Of a stretch of 36,481 nucleotides of DNA, positions 5,974 through 11,811 are shown in pieces. Origin of the DNA: Bacteroidota bacterium (GTDB lineage Bacteria > Bacteroidota > Bacteroidia > Chitinophagales > JADIYW01). The stretch's first letter is position 1, and each line of letters starts with the position of its first letter. The DNA is taken from contig JAQBNI010000115.1 of NCBI GenBank assembly GCA_028288625.1, forward strand, positions 1 through 36,481, in the 5' to 3' direction. The position numbers and the translations under genes are program-made. The notes under the pieces were generated by a model that saw nothing but the letters and a program-made list of their open reading frames with translations, searched no databases and had not been told where the DNA came from.

Positions 5974-7374
5974 CTATACATGAAGTGCCCTGCCTTCGGC
6001 AGCTAACGCTGCTTCCTTCATCGCTTCCGTGTATGTAGGGTGAGCATGACTGATGCGCCCGATATCTTCTGCGCTTGCCCTGAATTCCATTGCAACAACG
6101 GCTTCCGCGATCATATCTGCCGCGCGCGCGCCGATCATGTGCACGCCAAGGATCTCATCAGTTTCGCTATCGGCGAGTACTTTCACCAATCCATCAATAT
6201 CCATGCTCGCGCGCGATCGTCCTAGCGCGCGCATCGGGAATGAACCCACTTTATATGCGATGCCCTTTTCTTTTAGTTGCGCTTCCGTTTGACCAACTGC
6301 GGCAACTTCCGGCCATGTATACACGACACCCGGAATTAGATTATAATTGATATGCGGTTTTTGTCCTGCAATAAATTCAGCCACCAGCACGCCTTCTTCA
6401 CTTGCCTTATGTGCGAGCATAGCTCCGCGGATCACATCACCAATTGCATAAATATTTTGTTTGGAAGTTTGCAAATGTTCGTTCACTTCTATTTGTCCTC
6501 CCTTAGTAGTTTTAATGCCGACATTTTCCAAACCTAAATTATCCGTGTAAGGTTTTCTGCCGATCGCAACCAAACAATAATCGGCTTCGATTTTTATTTC
6601 CTGCTCTTTTTTATCGATAGCGGTAACCGTCACAGAATCGCCGTTGTTATTTGCACCGGTAACTTTATGAGAGAGATAAAACTTCACACCAAGTTTCTTT
6701 AAGCTGCGTTGCAATTCTTTACTCATATCATCATCCATCGTTGGAATGATCTTGTCCATAAACTCAACAACGGATACTTCTGTACCGAGTCGCTGATAAA
6801 CAGAACCTAATTCCAAGCCAATAACACCGCCCCCGATGATCACCATAGTTTTCGGCAATTCTGTTAAGCTTAGTGCTTCTGTTGAAGTGATAATTCTTTT
6901 TTTATCTATGGTGAGAAAAGGCAATGTAGATGGTTTTGAACCTGTTGCAATAATTGTATTCGTAGATTCAATTTGTTCTTCGGTGCCATCGGCTTTGTTG
7001 ATGTTTATCGTTGTCTCATTAATAAAAAATCCATGACCGTTATACACCGTAATCTTATTTTTTTTCATCAAAAACTCCACGCCCGAATTCATCTGCTGCA
7101 CCACTTTTGTTTTCCGGTCGATCATTTGCGCAAAGTTTACTTTCGCTTCTGAAATATCAATGCCGTGTTCTTTGAAAGTGTGGGTTGCATTATGAAAATG
7201 TTCTGAAGAATCGAGCAATGCTTTGGATGGAATACAACCGACATTCAGACAAGTGCCTCCAAGTGTGTTATATCTTTCAATGATTGCGGTTTTAAAACCG
7301 AGTTGTGCGCAACGTATTGCCGCAACATATCCTCCGGGACCGCTTCCTATAATTGTAATGTCGTATTTTTCCAT
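5974..7374 (-). CDS. lpdA: Dihydrolipoyl dehydrogenase (E3)
   Basis: This FAD enzyme (466 residues, the usual length) re-oxidises the dihydrolipoyl group of 2-oxoacid dehydrogenase complexes and reduces NAD+. The N-terminal FAD site is IIGSGPGGYVAAIRC (residues ~8-22). The redox-active disulfide lies in GGTCLNVGCIPS (Cys42/Cys47). The NAD-binding Rossmann motif is GGGVIGLELG, and the C-terminal interface has the His-Glu catalytic pair in HAHPTYTEAM. It is the third gene of the operon sucA-odhB-lpdA, 136 bp after odhB, so it most likely serves the 2-oxoglutarate complex, though E3 is often shared with pyruvate dehydrogenase. A heptad-repeat array lies only 4 bp before its start codon, in the ribosome-binding region. 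Confidence 0.96.
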   Translation of the reverse strand: MEKYDITIIGSGPGGYVAAIRCAQLGFKTAIIERYNTLGGTCLNVGCIPSKALLDSSEHFHNATHTFKEHGIDISEAKVNFAQMIDRKTKVVQQMNSGVEFLMKKNKITVYNGHGFFINETTININKADGTEEQIESTNTIIATGSKPSTLPFLTIDKKRIITSTEALSLTELPKTMVIIGGGVIGLELGSVYQRLGTEVSVVEFMDKIIPTMDDDMSKELQRSLKKLGVKFYLSHKVTGANNNGDSVTVTAIDKKEQEIKIEADYCLVAIGRKPYTDNLGLENVGIKTTKGGQIEVNEHLQTSKQNIYAIGDVIRGAMLAHKASEEGVLVAEFIAGQKPHINYNLIPGVVYTWPEVAAVGQTEAQLKEKGIAYKVGSFPMRALGRSRASMDIDGLVKVLADSETDEILGVHMIGARAADMIAEAVVAMEFRASAEDIGRISHAHPTYTEAMKEAALAAEGRALHV

Positions 7375-7378
7375 TGTA

Positions 7379-7413
7379 GTATTGAGTAGTTCGTATTACG
7401 TATTGAGTATCTC
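7379..7413 (-). repeat. Heptad quasi-repeat array before lpdA
   Basis: Five consecutive 7-bp units are seen. On the plus strand the first is GTATTGA, the third GTATTAC and the fourth GTATTGA. The array occupies the leader directly upstream of the lpdA start codon. Read on the minus strand the units end in TAC or TAT-like triplets, the same family as the array at 7483 in opposite orientation. Confidence 0.75.
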
Positions 7414-7482
7414 GACAAAAGTTTTAAATAATTTTTGTAATGATTTTATTTAATAGCACTGACTAAATTTTTATCCATATAT

Positions 7483-7517
7483 CGCAATACTAAGTACGCA
7501 ATACGCTATACTATAAT
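7483..7517 (+). repeat. Heptad quasi-repeat array at the odhB stop
   Basis: Units CGCAATA (7483) and CGCAATA (7497) alternate with CTAAGTA and CGCTATA at an exact 7-bp spacing, with a weaker fifth unit running over the odhB stop codon (7511-7513). Between this array and the one at 7379 lies a 69-bp AT-rich spacer with nothing recognisable. Confidence 0.75.
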
Positions 7518-8905
7518 TCCAATAACGCCTTCGCCGGATCAACACCCACTAACATTTTCTCAGGATTTTCTAAATAATCTTTCACCGTTACTAAGAATCC
7601 TACACTTTCTTTTCCGTCTACTATTCGATGGTCATAACTCAATGCTACATACATCATCGGACGTATTTCTACTTTTCCGTCGATTGCCATCGGGCGATCC
7701 TGGATCTTGTGCATGCCGAGAATTGCAGACTGCGGTTGATTGATGATGGGCGTAGACATCAGCGAGCCAAACACACCGCCGTTGGTAATGGTAAACGTAC
7801 CACCTTCCATATCTTCCATCGACAATGCGCCGTCACGACCAGCTAATGCAAGTCGTTTCACTTCTTTTTCAATTTCTGCAAACGACATGCTTTCCGCATT
7901 CCTGATCACAGGAACAACCAATCCTTTCGGCGTAGAAACTGCAATCGATATATCTACAAAATCATGATAGACGATATTTTCTTCATCGATATACGCATTG
8001 ATTGCAGGAAATTGCTGTAATGCCAGTGCGCATGCTTTTGTGAAAAATGACATAAAGCCTAAACCTATTCCGTTTTTTTCTTCAAATGCTTTTTTATACT
8101 GATCGCGAATGTGGTTGATGCGCGTCATATCAATTTCATTGAACGTCGTGAGCATCGCCGTTTGATTCTTCACTTCCACCAATCGTCGTGAAATTGTTTT
8201 GCGAATGCGCGACATTTTTTCAACTCTCTCTTCACGGGAGAAATCTTTCTTGTTCACAGTTAACGGTTCACGGTTCACCGTTTTTTGCTGTGAACTGTTA
8301 TCTGTTATCTGTGAACTTTTTTCTGCCTTCAGCGCATCATCCTTTGTAATTCTTCCATCAACGCCGGTGCCCTTCACATCCTTTGTTTCGATATTCTTTT
8401 CTTCCAGTATTTTTTTCGCAGATGGAGATGGCGTGCCGGTTGCGTAGGTTTTAGTGTCCACGGTCGACTGTCCACTGTCCACGGTTTTATTTTCAGGTAT
8501 TTTAGATTCTTCTTTTTTTATCTGATTTTCTTTCTGTGGACTGTCGTCTGTGGACTGTGGACTTTCTTTCTTCTCTTCTTTTATTGCATCTTGTTTCTGT
8601 GGACTGTCGACTGTGGACTGTGGGCTTTTTACTTCTTCTTTCTTCTCTTCCTCTTTGGGCGCCGCTGCATCCGTCTCAATATACGCAACCACTCCACCGA
8701 TCTTTATATCATTACCTTCCTTTGCAACACGCGTAATTGTTCCTGCAACTTCCGCCGGTAATTCAAATGTTGCTTTATCAGATTCGAACTCTGCTAACGG
8801 CTGATCCATCTTTACATAATCGCCATCCTTTACCAGCCATGATGCCAAAGTAACTTCTGTTACGCTTTCACCGATTGCCGGAACTTTTATTTCTACTTTA
8901 CTCAT
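7511..8905 (-). CDS. odhB: 2-oxoglutarate dehydrogenase E2, dihydrolipoyllysine succinyltransferase
   Basis: This is the E2 core of the 2-oxoglutarate dehydrogenase complex, transferring succinyl groups from lipoyl-lysine to CoA in the TCA cycle. Residues 1-78 form a lipoyl domain with the target Lys44 in ESDKATFE. A peripheral-subunit-binding domain ([10 protein letters not shown]...[10 protein letters not shown]) follows at ~155-195. The catalytic domain ends with DHRIVDG (His426, Asp430). The length is 464 residues, longer than the ~405 of E. coli SucB because the linkers at ~80-150 and ~195-225 are expanded. These linkers contain translated copies of short 7-bp repeat arrays, giving peptides such as [11 protein letters not shown] and [11 protein letters not shown]. 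It is 146 bp after sucA and is followed by lpdA. Complete motifs argue that it is functional despite the inserts. Confidence 0.95.
8252..8279 (+). repeat. In-gene heptad array 1 (odhB second linker)
   Basis: Four consecutive heptads start with GTTCACA (8252) and GTTAACG (8259), and two more GTTCAC-units follow. Read on the odhB strand they give [11 protein letters not shown] between the E3-binding and catalytic domains. Confidence 0.8.
8288..8315 (+). repeat. In-gene heptad array 2 (odhB second linker)
   Basis: The heptads are CTGTGAA, two copies of CTGTTAT, and CTGTGAA again, 8 bp from array 1. Translated on the odhB strand they read [11 protein letters not shown]. The family sequence differs from array 1 but the period is the same 7 bp. 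Confidence 0.8.
8456..8483 (+). repeat. In-gene heptad array 3 (odhB first linker)
   Basis: Four heptads start GTCCACG (8456) and GTCGACT (8463), followed by two more GTCCAC-units. The encoded peptide is [11 protein letters not shown]. It is inverted relative to arrays 4 and 5. Confidence 0.8.
8534..8561 (+). repeat. In-gene heptad array 4 (odhB first linker)
   Basis: Four heptads of the CTGTGGA type, with the second unit CTGTCGT, encode [11 protein letters not shown] on the odhB strand. Array 5 and its following pyrimidine-rich flank (encoding Glu/Lys) are a near duplicate, so part of the linker probably arose by duplication of a ~63-bp segment. Confidence 0.8.
8597..8624 (+). repeat. In-gene heptad array 5 (odhB first linker)
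   Basis: Units CTGTGGA and CTGTCGA are followed by CTGTGGA and CTGTGGG at an exact 7-bp period, encoding [11 protein letters not shown]. As in arrays 3 and 4, the variant unit next to the edge contains GTCGAC or a one-base change from it. Confidence 0.8.
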
Positions 8906-8908
8906 TTC

Positions 8909-8943
8909 AGATTTTTAGATTTTGAGATTCAAGACTTGAGACG
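8909..8943 (-). repeat. Heptad quasi-repeat array directly upstream of odhB
   Basis: Read on the minus strand the array contains TCTCAAG, TCTTGAA and TCTCAAA in direct 7-bp succession and then decays into AT-rich units. It ends 3 bp before the odhB ATG and so fills the translation-initiation region. Confidence 0.6.
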
Positions 8944-9051: not shown

Positions 9052-11811
9052 CTACCCAAACGCAAGCTCCACCAATGCTCTCTGATCTTTTTCATGCAGC
9101 TTGCTAAAACCTGTAGCGGGAGAAGCAGCTTGCGGACGTGCAATACATTGCAGGTATTTCGCTTTCTTGTAATTCAGCATGAGGAATGTCCACGCACCCA
9201 TGTTGATCGGTTCTTCCTGCACCCAGTGAAACGTGGCTTTCGTGTATTTTTTTATGATGTTATCCAGTTGTTTTTCAGCTACAGGATATAATTGTTCCAA
9301 ACGCACGATCGCCACATCAGTCCTGTTATCTGCTTCTTTTTTTACAAGGAGATCATAATAGATCTTGCCGGAGCAGAACAATACTTTTTTTACTTTGGAA
9401 GGCTCGAGTGTATTATCATCATCAATTACTTCACGGAATTTTCCTTCGTATAATTCTTTAATATTATCTACGCACTTTGGATGGCGCAACAATGATTTCG
9501 GAGCCATATTGATCAATGGTTTTCGGAACGACCATGCCAATTGTCTTCTTATTGCATGAAAGAAATTTGCAGGCGTGGTAATATTTGTGACCACCATATT
9601 TAATTCGCCGCACATTTGCAGGAAGCGTTCCATACGTGCAGAGCTGTGTTCAGGTCCCGCGCCCTCATATCCGTGGGGCAATAATAAAACAAGACCGGAA
9701 TTTTTATTCCATTTTGTTTCACTCGATGCAATGAACTGGTCGATAATGATCTGTGCGCCATTATCGAAATCTCCGAATTGCGCTTCCCAGATCGTCAATG
9801 GATTCGGGCTTGGAATCGAATAACCGAATTCAAACCCCAAAACGCCATATTCAGATAGAAGCGAATTGTAGATCATAAATCTTCCCTGCTTTCCGTCTTC
9901 AGCAATATGTTCAAGTCGATTATATTCTTCGCCAGTCACTTCATCATACAAGCATGCATGGCGATGAGAGAATGTTCCGCGTTTTACATCTTCCCCGCTT
10001 AACCGCACATCATTTCCATCCAGTAAAATAGAGCCATACGCAATTAATTCCGCTGCAGCCCAATCAACCGTATTGTTTTCGCGCATCAGCACGCGGCGCT
10101 GCTCGAGGTATTGCTGTATTTTTTTCAGCGGCTGAAATCCTTCCGGGATCTTCACCATCGCCTTAATAATTTTTACAAGATCTTCTTTCGAAATTTTTGT
10201 TTCAGGAGAAGATTCAAAATCTTCCTGTGTCGCAGTTTCCAAAGCCTGCCATGCTAACTCGGTAATTTGCGGTTTATATTTTTTGGGTAGCTGCTTGTAA
10301 TCATTTAAGCGTGCCTGCAACTCCTGCCAGAATTCTTCTTCCATCTTTTTTGCAAATTCCCCTTCCGCCATTCCCCAGTCGTATAATTTTTTCTGATAAA
10401 GATCTCTTACGCCGGTATGGTTCTTGATCAGGTTATACATTTGCGGCTGTGTGTACTGTGGATCATCACCTTCATTATGTCCCCACTTGCGGTAACAAAC
10501 CATATCCACAAAAACATCCTTATTAAATTGCTGGCGATATTCCGCGGCTAACTCTGCAACATACGTTACACATTCTACATCATCGCCGTTCACATGAAAG
10601 ACAGGCGCTTGCACGGTTGCCGCAACGGACGTACAATAATTGGAAGAACGCGCATCATCAAAATCAGTGGTAAAACCGATCTGGTTATTGATCACGAAAT
10701 GTATGGTTCCGCCGACCGTATAACCTTCAAGCAATTGCATTTGCAATACTTCATATACAATGCCTTGTCCTGCAACTGCAGCATCTCCATGGATCGTTAA
10801 CGGAAGAATTTTATCATAATCCGCATCGTAGATCGCATCCGCTTTTGCACGGCAAAATCCCTGTACAACGGGATTGATCGCTTCAAGATGTGATGGATTC
10901 GGCAGCAGCTTAATATAAAGCTCTTTCTTATCCATGGTTTCATATTGCGAAGAATAACCTAAGTGATATTTTACATCGCCCGTGCCTGAAGAAAAATCAT
11001 CCGGAGAAATTCCTTCGAACTCAGAAAAAATTTCTTCGTATGTTTTTCCTACAATGTTTACAAGAATATTTAAACGACCTCTGTGCGCCATGCCGATCAC
11101 GACTTCCTGCACGCCATGGTTTGCAGCAACGTTGAACATTGCATCCAATGCAGGAATTGTAGATTCTCCTCCTTCTAAAGAAAAACGCTTTTGACCGATA
11201 TATTTCGTGCCGAGAAATTTTTCATAAACGGCAGACTCATTTAATTTTTCGAGTATTCTTTTTTTCTTTTCGAGGGGATGCTCATATGCGATGTATCCAT
11301 GTTCGATCTGTTCTCGAAGCCATGCACGCTCATCGCGATCGAGGATATAATTATATTCCCAGCCGATGGTGCGGCAATACACTTGTTTCAATCGATCGAT
11401 AATAGCACGCAGTGTTGCTTTGCCGATTCCAATTTCATTCCCTGCGTGAAATTCCACATCGAGATCATTTTCATCCAAACCAAAACAATTCATGTCCAGA
11501 TCTGCATGGCGATCTCTACGCGGGCGAATTGGATTTGTATTGGCGAGTAAATGTCCCTTGTTGCGGTACCCGCTGATCAGTTTTAAAACCCTGAATTCTT
11601 TTGGTGAAACCACCTCTTTAGTTTGCGGAATTTCCGCAACTGCTCCATTCTTATGCTCCCCGTTATGTTCTCCGAATTTATAAGCAAAATCAAAACCGGC
11701 GAAAAACTTTCTCCATTCCGGATCGACTGTTTTTTCGTCTTTTAAATAGTCTTGGTATAAGGAATCGATATAGGCAGGCTCGGCATTAGAAAGTATAGAT
11801 AAATCTTCCAT
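9052..11811 (-). CDS. sucA: 2-oxoglutarate dehydrogenase E1 component
   Basis: This thiamine-diphosphate-dependent E1 decarboxylates 2-oxoglutarate and succinylates the lipoyl group of OdhB. At 919 residues it has the normal SucA length. The N-terminal helix (AYIDSLYQDYLKD) is the E2-binding segment. LEGGES (212-217) and GMAHRGRLN (240-248) are signature blocks of this family. GDAAVAGQGIVYE carries the ThDP/Mg2+ site, and the GHNEGDDP block and the C-terminal transketolase-like half (LPHGYEGAGPEHSSAR) are intact. It is the first gene of the operon sucA-odhB-lpdA and is transcribed divergently from rpsT across a 178-bp gap with a candidate promoter at 11836-11843. The ATG at 11811 gives the expected N-terminus. 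The identification is very secure. Confidence 0.97.
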   Translation of the reverse strand: MEDLSILSNAEPAYIDSLYQDYLKDEKTVDPEWRKFFAGFDFAYKFGEHNGEHKNGAVAEIPQTKEVVSPKEFRVLKLISGYRNKGHLLANTNPIRPRRDRHADLDMNCFGLDENDLDVEFHAGNEIGIGKATLRAIIDRLKQVYCRTIGWEYNYILDRDERAWLREQIEHGYIAYEHPLEKKKRILEKLNESAVYEKFLGTKYIGQKRFSLEGGESTIPALDAMFNVAANHGVQEVVIGMAHRGRLNILVNIVGKTYEEIFSEFEGISPDDFSSGTGDVKYHLGYSSQYETMDKKELYIKLLPNPSHLEAINPVVQGFCRAKADAIYDADYDKILPLTIHGDAAVAGQGIVYEVLQMQLLEGYTVGGTIHFVINNQIGFTTDFDDARSSNYCTSVAATVQAPVFHVNGDDVECVTYVAELAAEYRQQFNKDVFVDMVCYRKWGHNEGDDPQYTQPQMYNLIKNHTGVRDLYQKKLYDWGMAEGEFAKKMEEEFWQELQARLNDYKQLPKKYKPQITELAWQALETATQEDFESSPETKISKEDLVKIIKAMVKIPEGFQPLKKIQQYLEQRRVLMRENNTVDWAAAELIAYGSILLDGNDVRLSGEDVKRGTFSHRHACLYDEVTGEEYNRLEHIAEDGKQGRFMIYNSLLSEYGVLGFEFGYSIPSPNPLTIWEAQFGDFDNGAQIIIDQFIASSETKWNKNSGLVLLLPHGYEGAGPEHSSARMERFLQMCGELNMVVTNITTPANFFHAIRRQLAWSFRKPLINMAPKSLLRHPKCVDNIKELYEGKFREVIDDDNTLEPSKVKKVLFCSGKIYYDLLVKKEADNRTDVAIVRLEQLYPVAEKQLDNIIKKYTKATFHWVQEEPINMGAWTFLMLNYKKAKYLQCIARPQAASPATGFSKLHEKDQRALVELAFG

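Follow-up and report, generated by a model that had tools for sequence, protein, structure and literature searches.

Four-unit heptad arrays in and beyond the odhB region of a Bacteroidota genome: candidate sites for a cooperative DNA-binding factor

The odhB region of contig JAQBNI010000115.1 (Bacteroidota bacterium, Chitinophagales; assembly GCA_028288625.1) raises the question of why several short tandem arrays of changing sequence should all keep a period of exactly 7 bp. An earlier note, made from the letters of this stretch, had listed eight such arrays in five families between positions 7379 and 8943 of the window (the whole 36,481-nt stretch analysed here), and had ascribed them to a shared generating process or to a factor binding in a 7-bp register. 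We found that seven of the eight are heptad arrays, that the genome carries a large excess of such arrays, and that its largest family nearly always stops at four units. We tentatively regard these arrays, with somewhat less than even confidence, as candidate sites along which a DNA-binding factor would assemble cooperatively in steps of 7 bp, comparable to the parS sites of plasmid pSM19035.

Heptad arrays in the odhB region

The window was scanned by autocorrelation at lag 7 (21 comparisons) and at the other lags from 4 to 15, against 60 order-2 Markov simulations. At a threshold of at least 17/21, five lag-7 arrays were found (8251, 8287, 8455, 8534 and 8596) where 0.03 were expected, and none at the other lags. 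At least 15/21 gave seven lag-7 rows (7377, 7488, 8251, 8455, 8534, 8596 and 27225) against 0.45 expected, with 8287 merged into 8251 and with 27225 lying outside the odhB region. The rows at 7377 and 7488 (15/21 each) are borderline singly, yet they form an inverted pair. Rows of Tandem Repeats Finder (TRF) coincide with the lag-7 array positions. The eighth array of the earlier note, at 8909, falls below 14/21 at lag 7 and has a TRF period of 8. The features are as follows (ORF, open reading frame).

7379–7413, + strand: left arm of GTATTGN type (GTATTGA GTAGTTC GTATTAC GTATTGA GTATCTC); lag-7 15/21; TRF 7373–7410, period 7
7483–7511, − strand: right arm (CGCAATA CTAAGTA CGCAATA CGCTATA); lag-7 15/21; TRF 7483–7511
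8252–8282, + strand: left arm (GTTCACA GTTAACG GTTCACG GTTCACC); lag-7 17/21; TRF
8288–8317, − strand: right arm (CTGTGAA CTGTTAT CTGTTAT CTGTGAA); lag-7 17/21; 30-bp lag-7 segment
8456–8485, + strand: left arm (GTCCACG GTCGACT GTCCACT GTCCACG), exactly four units, then G; lag-7 17/21
8534–8563, − strand: right arm, reverse complement GTCCACA GTCCACA GACGACA GTCCACA, four units; lag-7 17/21
8597–8624, − strand: second right arm, reverse complement GCCCACA GTCCACA GTCGACA GTCCACA, four units; lag-7 18/21
7511–8905, − strand: odhB, 2-oxo acid dehydrogenase E2, five arrays in linkers; ORF, translation, Pfam
8905–8929, no strand: weak, AT-rich repeat immediately before the odhB start codon; TRF period 8, consensus TTTCAGAT
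5974–7374, − strand: lpd; ORF, Pfam
9052–11811, − strand: sucA/odhA; ORF, Pfam

The arrays at 7379 and 7483 form the two ends of the lpd–odhB spacer and are inverted partners at 18/24; the first lies some 4 nt ahead of the lpd start codon and the second extends to the odhB stop codon. The remaining five lie in linkers of OdhB, for which Pfam gives a lipoyl domain at amino acids (aa) 5–76, an E3-binding domain at aa 160–191 and a catalytic domain at aa 225–452. By these limits, 8252 and 8288 are located in the linker between the E3-binding and catalytic domains, and 8456, 8534 and 8597 in that between the lipoyl and E3-binding domains, 8456 being antisense to odhB and the other two sense. The facing pairs in the window are 7379/7483, 8252/8288, and 8456 with either 8534 or 8597. 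Because a 63-bp imperfect tandem duplication (TRF row 8507–8641, period 63) takes in both 8534 and 8597, one of the two probably arose by segmental copying.

Read on either strand, the units fall into two types. One is GTATTGN (7379 and 7483), and the other is GTCCAC, GTCGAC, GTTCAC, GTTAAC or GATAAC plus one base (8252, 8288, 8456, 8534 and 8597; the reverse complement of 8288 is, up to rotation, GTTCACA GATAACA GATAACA GTTCACA). The count of five families was therefore too high, and the view that the families are wholly unrelated does not stand either, since most window arrays are variants of one unit type and a GTC/AGT core is moderately enriched across families. That the divergent unit contains GTCGAC or GTTAAC in three arrays is correct (8252, 8456 and 8597). 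The A-B-A-A order claimed for most arrays holds as a plus-strand reading of 8252, 8456, 8534 and 8597; in unit orientation, 8534 and 8597 become A-A-B-A.

Genome-wide excess of lag-7 arrays

A genome-wide lag-7 scan had been set beforehand as the test of the pattern. The source genome comprises 3.71 Mb in 161 contigs, from which we took 36 stretches (526,445 bp) chosen regardless of arrays, with a threshold of at least 16/21. This sample yielded 39 lag-7 arrays, as compared with 2 in one order-3 Markov control (0–2 at its other lags). Seven other lags gave 0–11 arrays in the same sample, and lags 6, 8 and 9 also exceed the control (11, 6 and 7 vs. 1 each); lag 7 is by far the most enriched against both the other lags and the control. 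By extrapolation, the genome would hold about 275 lag-7 arrays.

Congeneric genomes yielded 7 lag-7 arrays in 315 kb over seven genomes, four of them (three in G003, one in G006) at odhB or beside it, from stretches containing this gene. In other genera, 10 were found in 381 kb (20 stretches), including five within one 20-kb stretch of a single genome (G032). Two genomes picked for their GTCCAC arrays, G263 and G062, gave one and zero lag-7 arrays in the sampled stretches. As congeners and other genera yield far fewer, the source genome is unusually rich in lag-7 arrays.

Number of units per array

Counting neighbouring units that are at least 5/7 alike, we compared the same stretches with the mean of 15 order-4 Markov simulations. 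There was no excess of two or three units (2909 vs. 3098 and 122 vs. 108 simulated), and perfect two-unit repeats (8–9 matches) were no commoner at lag 7 than at other lags. The excess begins at four units (20 vs. 2.9) and continues at five (16 vs. 0), six (2 vs. 0) and seven (1 vs. 0). After removal of the GTCNAC arrays, the numbers with four and five units were still 18 and 16. Among 51 lag-7 segments, 29 measured 27–33 bp, 18 were longer (up to 61 bp) and 4 shorter.

The limit is clearest in the GTCNAC family. A whole-genome search with GTCNACNGTCNAC returned 90 matches vs. 7 for the reversed-pattern control. When arrays were recounted in the DNA around all GTCNACNGTCNAC matches, with at most one mismatch per unit, 39 of the 45 had exactly four units; two had two, two had three, one had five and one had six. 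The base 3′ of the last unit was G in 42 of the 43 arrays of at least three units. Since the arrays were found by GTCNAC, counts for columns 1, 2, 3, 5 and 6 are biased; columns 4, 7 and the 3′ G are free. Column variation is uneven outside this family too (z 2.9, 39 arrays). Breakage of the assembly does not seem to hide long arrays, because one congener (G002) has an assembled 25-unit array, and because among 39 arrays of the sampled stretches there was 1 with a stretch end less than 100 bp away.

Four as the modal number of units is shared with the heptad repeats of Xanthomonas and Nostoc, and runs of at least four contiguous 7-bp repeats, as pSM19035 parS needs for function, are likewise present. 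The falling distribution from two units upwards that marks slippage was not seen. Ordinary heptanucleotide microsatellites, arising by polymerase slippage in a 7-nt register and then decaying by mutation without any function, would nevertheless account for several observations. An early survey had found that, in most genomes, heptanucleotides outnumber all other long simple repeats, and polymerase slippage was proposed as the cause (as told in PMC4679880). Long arrays occur elsewhere: G263 has one of about 9 units, G173 reaches about 31, and G150 has 12 where a contig begins, beside the 25 of G002 and the 4–11 of viral contigs. Against this stand the absence of an excess of two- and three-unit arrays in the source genome and the stop at exactly four in 39 of 45 GTCNAC arrays; moreover, random seeds would not be expected to put one family at more than 20 unlinked loci.

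Likeness of neighbouring units

A slippage origin should be visible in neighbouring units as mutual copies. In 43 GTCNAC arrays of the source genome we compared the free bases 4 and 7 with expectations from shuffling. Base 4 (C 127, G 35, A 7, T 4) agreed between adjacent units in 63 of 130 cases vs. 75.2 after shuffling, i.e., less often than expected (P = 0.0012). Base 7 (A 80, G 66, T 20, C 7) agreed in 55 vs. 48.1 adjacent pairs (P = 0.11); over all within-array pairs it was somewhat alike, with 116 agreements vs. 98.0 (P = 0.012), which is in favour of slippage. Neighbouring units are thus not mutual copies in the manner of slippage microsatellites, and their weak or negative likeness speaks against this process.

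The same bases bear on copying between loci. Identical base-7 patterns in different arrays lean to an excess (22 vs. 15.2, P = 0.07), and identical base-4 patterns show no significant one (102 vs. 89.7, P = 0.22). Some copying could therefore explain the mild likeness at base 7, but it does not explain the avoidance at base 4. With no significant excess of shared free-base patterns, copying of whole elements is not supported.

Variant units tend to avoid adjacency within an array. Units other than GTCCAC occupied positions 1, 2, 3 and 4 of the 39 four-unit arrays 12, 19, 14 and 8 times; the preference for position 2 falls short of significance (chi-square about 4.7, 3 degrees of freedom). The A-B-A-A order of the earlier note thus stands in the form of this non-adjacency, and a strict rule that the second unit is the divergent one was discarded.

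A different behaviour was observed for the GTCCAC and GTCGAC arrays of IMG/VR contigs, which have 4–11 units: adjacent GTCCAC pairs there share base 7 in 56 of 61 cases, compared with 12 of 18 at loci of the source genome (Fisher P = 0.014), where three viral contigs carry one identical array and the 18 pairs come from part of the source loci. Given the unit numbers, the base-4 avoidance and this viral contrast, slippage as sole cause is not tenable, although the mild base-7 likeness remains; as the general explanation we consider it unlikely.

Pairing, polarity and placement

Pairing was examined in 59 arrays, the window and four chosen stretches included, with a partner defined by at least 16/24 within 150 bp. 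An inverted partner was found for 22 of the 59, vs. 9 with a direct, 4 with a reversed and 3 with a complemented one. Among the 11 inverted pairs, GTC pointed inward in 8, GAC in 1 (GTC outward), and 2 were ties. All seven opposite-strand GTCNAC pairs within 200 bp (contigs C28, C39, C95, C131, C149, C158 and C159) run plus, then minus; the one same-strand neighbour pair is 8550/8599. Convergent site pairs, a feature of the Xanthomonas and Nostoc repeats, are therefore found here as well.

With a crude ORF caller, 37 of the 59 arrays lie less than half in an ORF, although ORFs make up 90% of the sequence. Placement is thus mostly intergenic, as with the Xanthomonas/Nostoc kind, if less so than the 89–93% given for Xanthomonas (PMC4692102). 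Such enrichment outside ORFs would also fit neutral DNA tolerated after slippage.

Facing arms that can pair, together with arrays within about 15 nt of a start codon (lpd in the window; a ribosomal-protein gene in the congeners G003 and G004), would suit elements acting at the RNA level: translational or mRNA-stability sites, or intergenic stem-loops. The TAACTGA repeats of Beggiatoaceae, for which a role in translation or mRNA stability has been proposed, likewise lie just upstream of start codons (PMC4679880). GTCNAC arrays within coding regions, however, are both sense and antisense, and the constant polarity of the pairs is left unexplained, as RNA pairing should be equally stable in reverse. 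We hold an RNA-level role to be improbable.

G-quadruplex formation, as proposed for GGGAATC of Xanthomonas and for the Nostoc repeats, has in its favour that Xanthomonas shares the four-unit mode and the convergent pairs (PMC4692102). Yet GGG or CCC was present in only 2 of the 39 sampled arrays of at least four units, and GTCNACN units have no G-tract. The sequence of these arrays itself refutes G-quadruplexes for them, and we give the idea practically no credence.

Arrays at orthologous sites in relatives

The OdhB span with linkers is 165 aa long in the source genome, and the 30 further rows compared range from 111 to 153 aa (two genomes entered twice; the partial row L074 left out). Of the five congeners with a full linker, four (G003, G005, G006 and G007, not G001) have linker arrays of at least 16/21. 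Their families differ from those of the source genome, and one is common to G003 and G007. Linkers of the remaining rows had no array at this threshold.

The valyl-tRNA synthetase (ValRS) gene has two sites. At site 1 the source gene has an extra facing pair and measures 129 nt, vs. 81–96 nt in 10 of 11 rows and 171 nt in G006. At site 2, arrays are present in the source genome (GTCCAC, antisense, 18/21; 69 nt), in G007 (GTCGAC, 18/21; 72 nt) and in G002 (AAATCT/AATGCT, 15/21; 69 nt). Nothing beyond the level of other lags was seen in G001 (69 nt), G005 (69 nt), G004 (63 nt), G003 (63 nt) and G006 (114 nt). G005 was considered as a further bearer and rejected, as its 13/21 is no more than that of the array-free G004 (13, and 14 at lag 8).

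In the gene of an ABC-F ATPase, AGTCCAC AGTCGAC GGTCAAC AGTCCAC of the source genome stands ungapped against AGTCCGC AAGCGAC AACTAAC AATCCGC of G006. One place in a UbiD-family gene carries GTGGAC in the source genome (18/21), GTGGAC/GTGAAC in G004 (14/21) and AAATCTC in G002 and G005 (21/21); four other rows reach 9–10/21. ValRS site 2 and the ABC-F and UbiD sites thus show that gain or loss of an array need not alter the length of the site, and that the unit differs between species at one place.

Unit families differ between whole genomes too. Matches to three GTCNAC units numbered 22 in the source genome, 10 in G006, 3 in G007 and 1 in G004, with none in nine other genomes. Three AATCTNN units were matched 7 times in G002, 6 in G005, 5 in G007, 2 each in G003 and G009 and once in G004, with none in the source genome and six others; the reversed control gave 1 (G005). 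In both counts matches overlap, and palindromic units are counted on both strands. Dominant families are accordingly GTCNAC in the source genome and G006 (there GTCGAC) and AATCTNN in G002, G005 and G007. The eight GTCNAC arrays of G004, G006 and G007 have four units in three cases and five in five. Of twelve AATCT arrays, eleven have 4–7 units and one has 25 (AATCTNA/CATCTCA; G002, contig C85, L331 247–421).

Two arrays could be compared between orthologues. G003 and G004 share a four-unit array before the ribosomal-protein gene (which we take, by eye and with no family call, to be rplP) with 1 difference in 28 bp, as against 7 in 27 bp of the preceding spacer. The TGACTAT array in odhB of G003 and G007 also keeps its unit number, a further point against slippage. 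Both have diverged by substitution only. The earlier note had counted slow divergence of this kind in relatives against its own proposal; it weighs against an active generator, not against binding sites.

These comparisons also concern mini mobile elements, i.e., four-heptad arms or facing pairs copied by a transposase or by gene conversion into lineage-specific families that then drift. One family is present at more than 20 unlinked loci, congeners have different dominant families, paired arms resemble inverted termini, and base-7 patterns lean to repetition. In addition, net insertions occur at the odhB linkers and ValRS site 1, since the former exceed all other rows in length and the latter most of them. 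On the other side, at ValRS site 2 and in the ABC-F gene the loops that hold arrays are no longer than the loops of relatives without one, identical free-base patterns are in no significant excess, and flanks and spacers of the arrays, compared by eye, share nothing except the array itself and its 3′ G, hence none of the internal sequence that copies of miniature inverted-repeat transposable elements share.

We also looked at transposases of the IS200/REP (repetitive extragenic palindrome) type, PF01797. The strongest match in the source genome, an IS200-like Y1 transposase gene (1489–1950 of L260, contig C39), is flanked on both sides (1285–2310) by GCTCCGTAGGAGCGACC-type palindromes unrelated to heptads. 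These GCTCC...GGAGC palindromes come with no GTCNAC array, so that for this strongest match the heptad element does not flank its transposase. The palindromes presumably represent the typical arrangement of REPs and REP-associated tyrosine transposases. The four strongest PF01797 matches lie in exactly the four of eight congeneric genomes with GTCNAC arrays (the source genome, G004, G006 and G007); this coincidence would arise by chance 1 time in 70 and is one of several comparisons, and a connection is unproven. Mobile elements seem to us a rather unlikely explanation on the whole.

A proposed factor with a 7-bp register

Of the two causes named in the earlier note, a slippage-type generator does not agree with the lack of excess of two- and three-unit arrays, and a 7-bp-register factor fits best, because the arrays mostly stop at four units, have a fixed 3′ edge and form convergent pairs, and because neighbouring units show weak or negative likeness. 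The weakly specified columns and the species dialects further favour a DNA recognition element over slippage or copying alone. That a protein is the cause, that it binds cooperatively, that selection keeps the arrays up and that facing arrays are bridged, we infer from these features.

According to this proposal, the arrays would be dispersed DNA-level recognition elements, mostly of four heptads (about 27–33 bp), single or in convergent pairs about 6–160 bp apart. A sequence-specific protein would assemble cooperatively along the DNA, keeping a 7-bp register. One protomer or dimer would occupy one pseudo-symmetric unit, here GTC-S-AC plus a weakly specified seventh base, and about four contiguous units would be required; bridging or looping between two facing arrays could follow. 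The preferred unit would vary by species and by array, through co-evolution of site and factor or through several related factors.

A number of points weigh against such a factor. Base 7 is mildly alike within arrays, and its patterns lean to repetition between them. A single binding site needs far less information than four conserved units hold, and so many unit families within a genome would call for several factors or for very relaxed specificity. Point mutation without visible intermediates of two or three units is a poor maker of four, which suggests that a generating or copying step is needed, and the 25-unit array of G002 means that slippage-like growth does occur in the genus. In ValRS and odhB the arrays look more like tolerated insertions than chosen sites, and with far fewer arrays in congeners the bearing genome cannot depend on a conserved set. 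The argument from conservation draws on one intergenic and one coding orthologous pair. Finally, a search of the source genome and seven congeneric ones with PF01402 (RHH_1, ribbon-helix-helix; other RHH models were not tried) gave no match above the cut-off; sub-threshold matches were present in six of the eight, with a best E of 0.005 (G002). An RHH_1 protein as the factor was rejected on this result, and the RHH protein that binds the repeat in pSM19035 parS has, by this search alone, no counterpart here. Mobile or conversion-like spread and a modified mutational origin are serious rivals to this proposal; a mixture, in which the arrays spread by some step and were then kept by selection, is possible.

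Relation to known heptad repeats

Cyanobacterial short tandemly repeated repetitive (STRR) sequences and prokaryotic long simple sequence repeats resemble our arrays as heptanucleotide tandem arrays of several families. They are defined as simple repeats; to our knowledge, a four-unit limit and dissimilarity of neighbours are no part of that definition. For Calothrix PCC7601, three heptanucleotide STRR families are reported (as told in PMC4692102).

Similar in unit number is the GGGAATC repeat of X. campestris and X. axonopodis, described with GGGGA(T/C)T of Nostoc PCC7120 as a G-rich family of 2–26 units associated with G-quadruplexes (Rehm et al. 2015, PMC4692102). The two Xanthomonas genomes have 186 and 183 sites, four units being commonest, a number linked to G-quadruplexes; positions 1–4 and 6 are conserved, and 70 and 75 convergent pairs occur (PMC4692102). 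Here, in contrast, several families almost without G-tracts were found, with a much tighter four-unit limit in the largest.

Geobacter metallireducens has 49 copies of H4 elements, four tandem heptads of consensus GGACCGG within and between genes, and Geobacter class 1–3 ‘global regulator binding sites’ are 7–8-nt tandem repeats, mostly in opposite-strand pairs at variable distance (PMC2700814). The elements are described there as predicted regulatory RNA elements or regulator sites; unlike our arrays, each class has one consensus, and the four-heptad class is GC-rich.

TAACTGA direct repeats are known from Beggiatoaceae, Cyanobacteria and five Bacteroidetes (MacGregor 2015, PMC4679880). They differ in that a single unit dominates, placed for the most part right before start codons, and in reaching up to 43 copies in some Bacteroidetes and Cyanobacteria. 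Gramella, Aequorivita and Elizabethkingia have further heptamer repeats beside them; to say that Bacteroidota had no described multi-family version was thus too strong. Our literature search, with most subscription papers outside its coverage, found no account of multi-family four-unit arrays in this phylum.

The pSM19035 ParB/omega protein (RHH) binds non-palindromic 7-bp WATCACW repeats, one dimer per heptad, and at least four contiguous heptads are needed for function (PMC9499535). Native sites differ from ours in having 7–10 units of mixed orientation within a site, and there are six of them on one plasmid (PMC9499535).

Polymerase slippage has previously been held responsible for the excess of heptanucleotides in bacterial genomes, and G-quadruplexes for the preference of Xanthomonas for four units. 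As a four-unit limit and convergent pairing are found here in arrays that have hardly any G-tracts and lack the main marks of slippage, neither explanation is general. A wider proposal, which we put forward as doubtful, is an element class across phyla defined by architecture (four heptads, often in convergent pairs, hundreds of sites per genome, unit turnover as dialect), whose reader would be a fast-evolving 7-bp-register DNA-binding system that bridges or organises the chromosome in the manner of heptad parS spread over many sites, and of which the Xanthomonas and Geobacter H4 repeats would be G-rich dialects. Four GTCCACN units plus G make a defined probe of 29 bp, by which the hypothetical reader could be fished out directly.

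Unit cores and arrays on viral contigs

Across families, a GTC/GAC core was moderately enriched (12 vs. 4.8 in the source genome, 8 vs. 3.5 in relatives), as was AGT/ACT (17 vs. 11.5 and 11 vs. 6.4). In array consensuses from five viral loci, 23 of 23 contain AGT or ACT; this viral set is biased, as it was picked by GTCCAC. One of the contigs, IMG/VR 3300031520_000176 (L297; 69% GC, unrelated), carries fourteen heptad arrays of at least 16/21 in 14 kb, of the families ACTGGCA, AGTGGGC, ACTGTCC, TAGTGGC and AGTTGCC, some of them facing. Another, 3300036786_000120 (L302 and L309; about 70% GC, unrelated), has several GTCCAC arrays of about four units with mixed seventh bases, including facing pairs, which resemble the kind found in the source genome.

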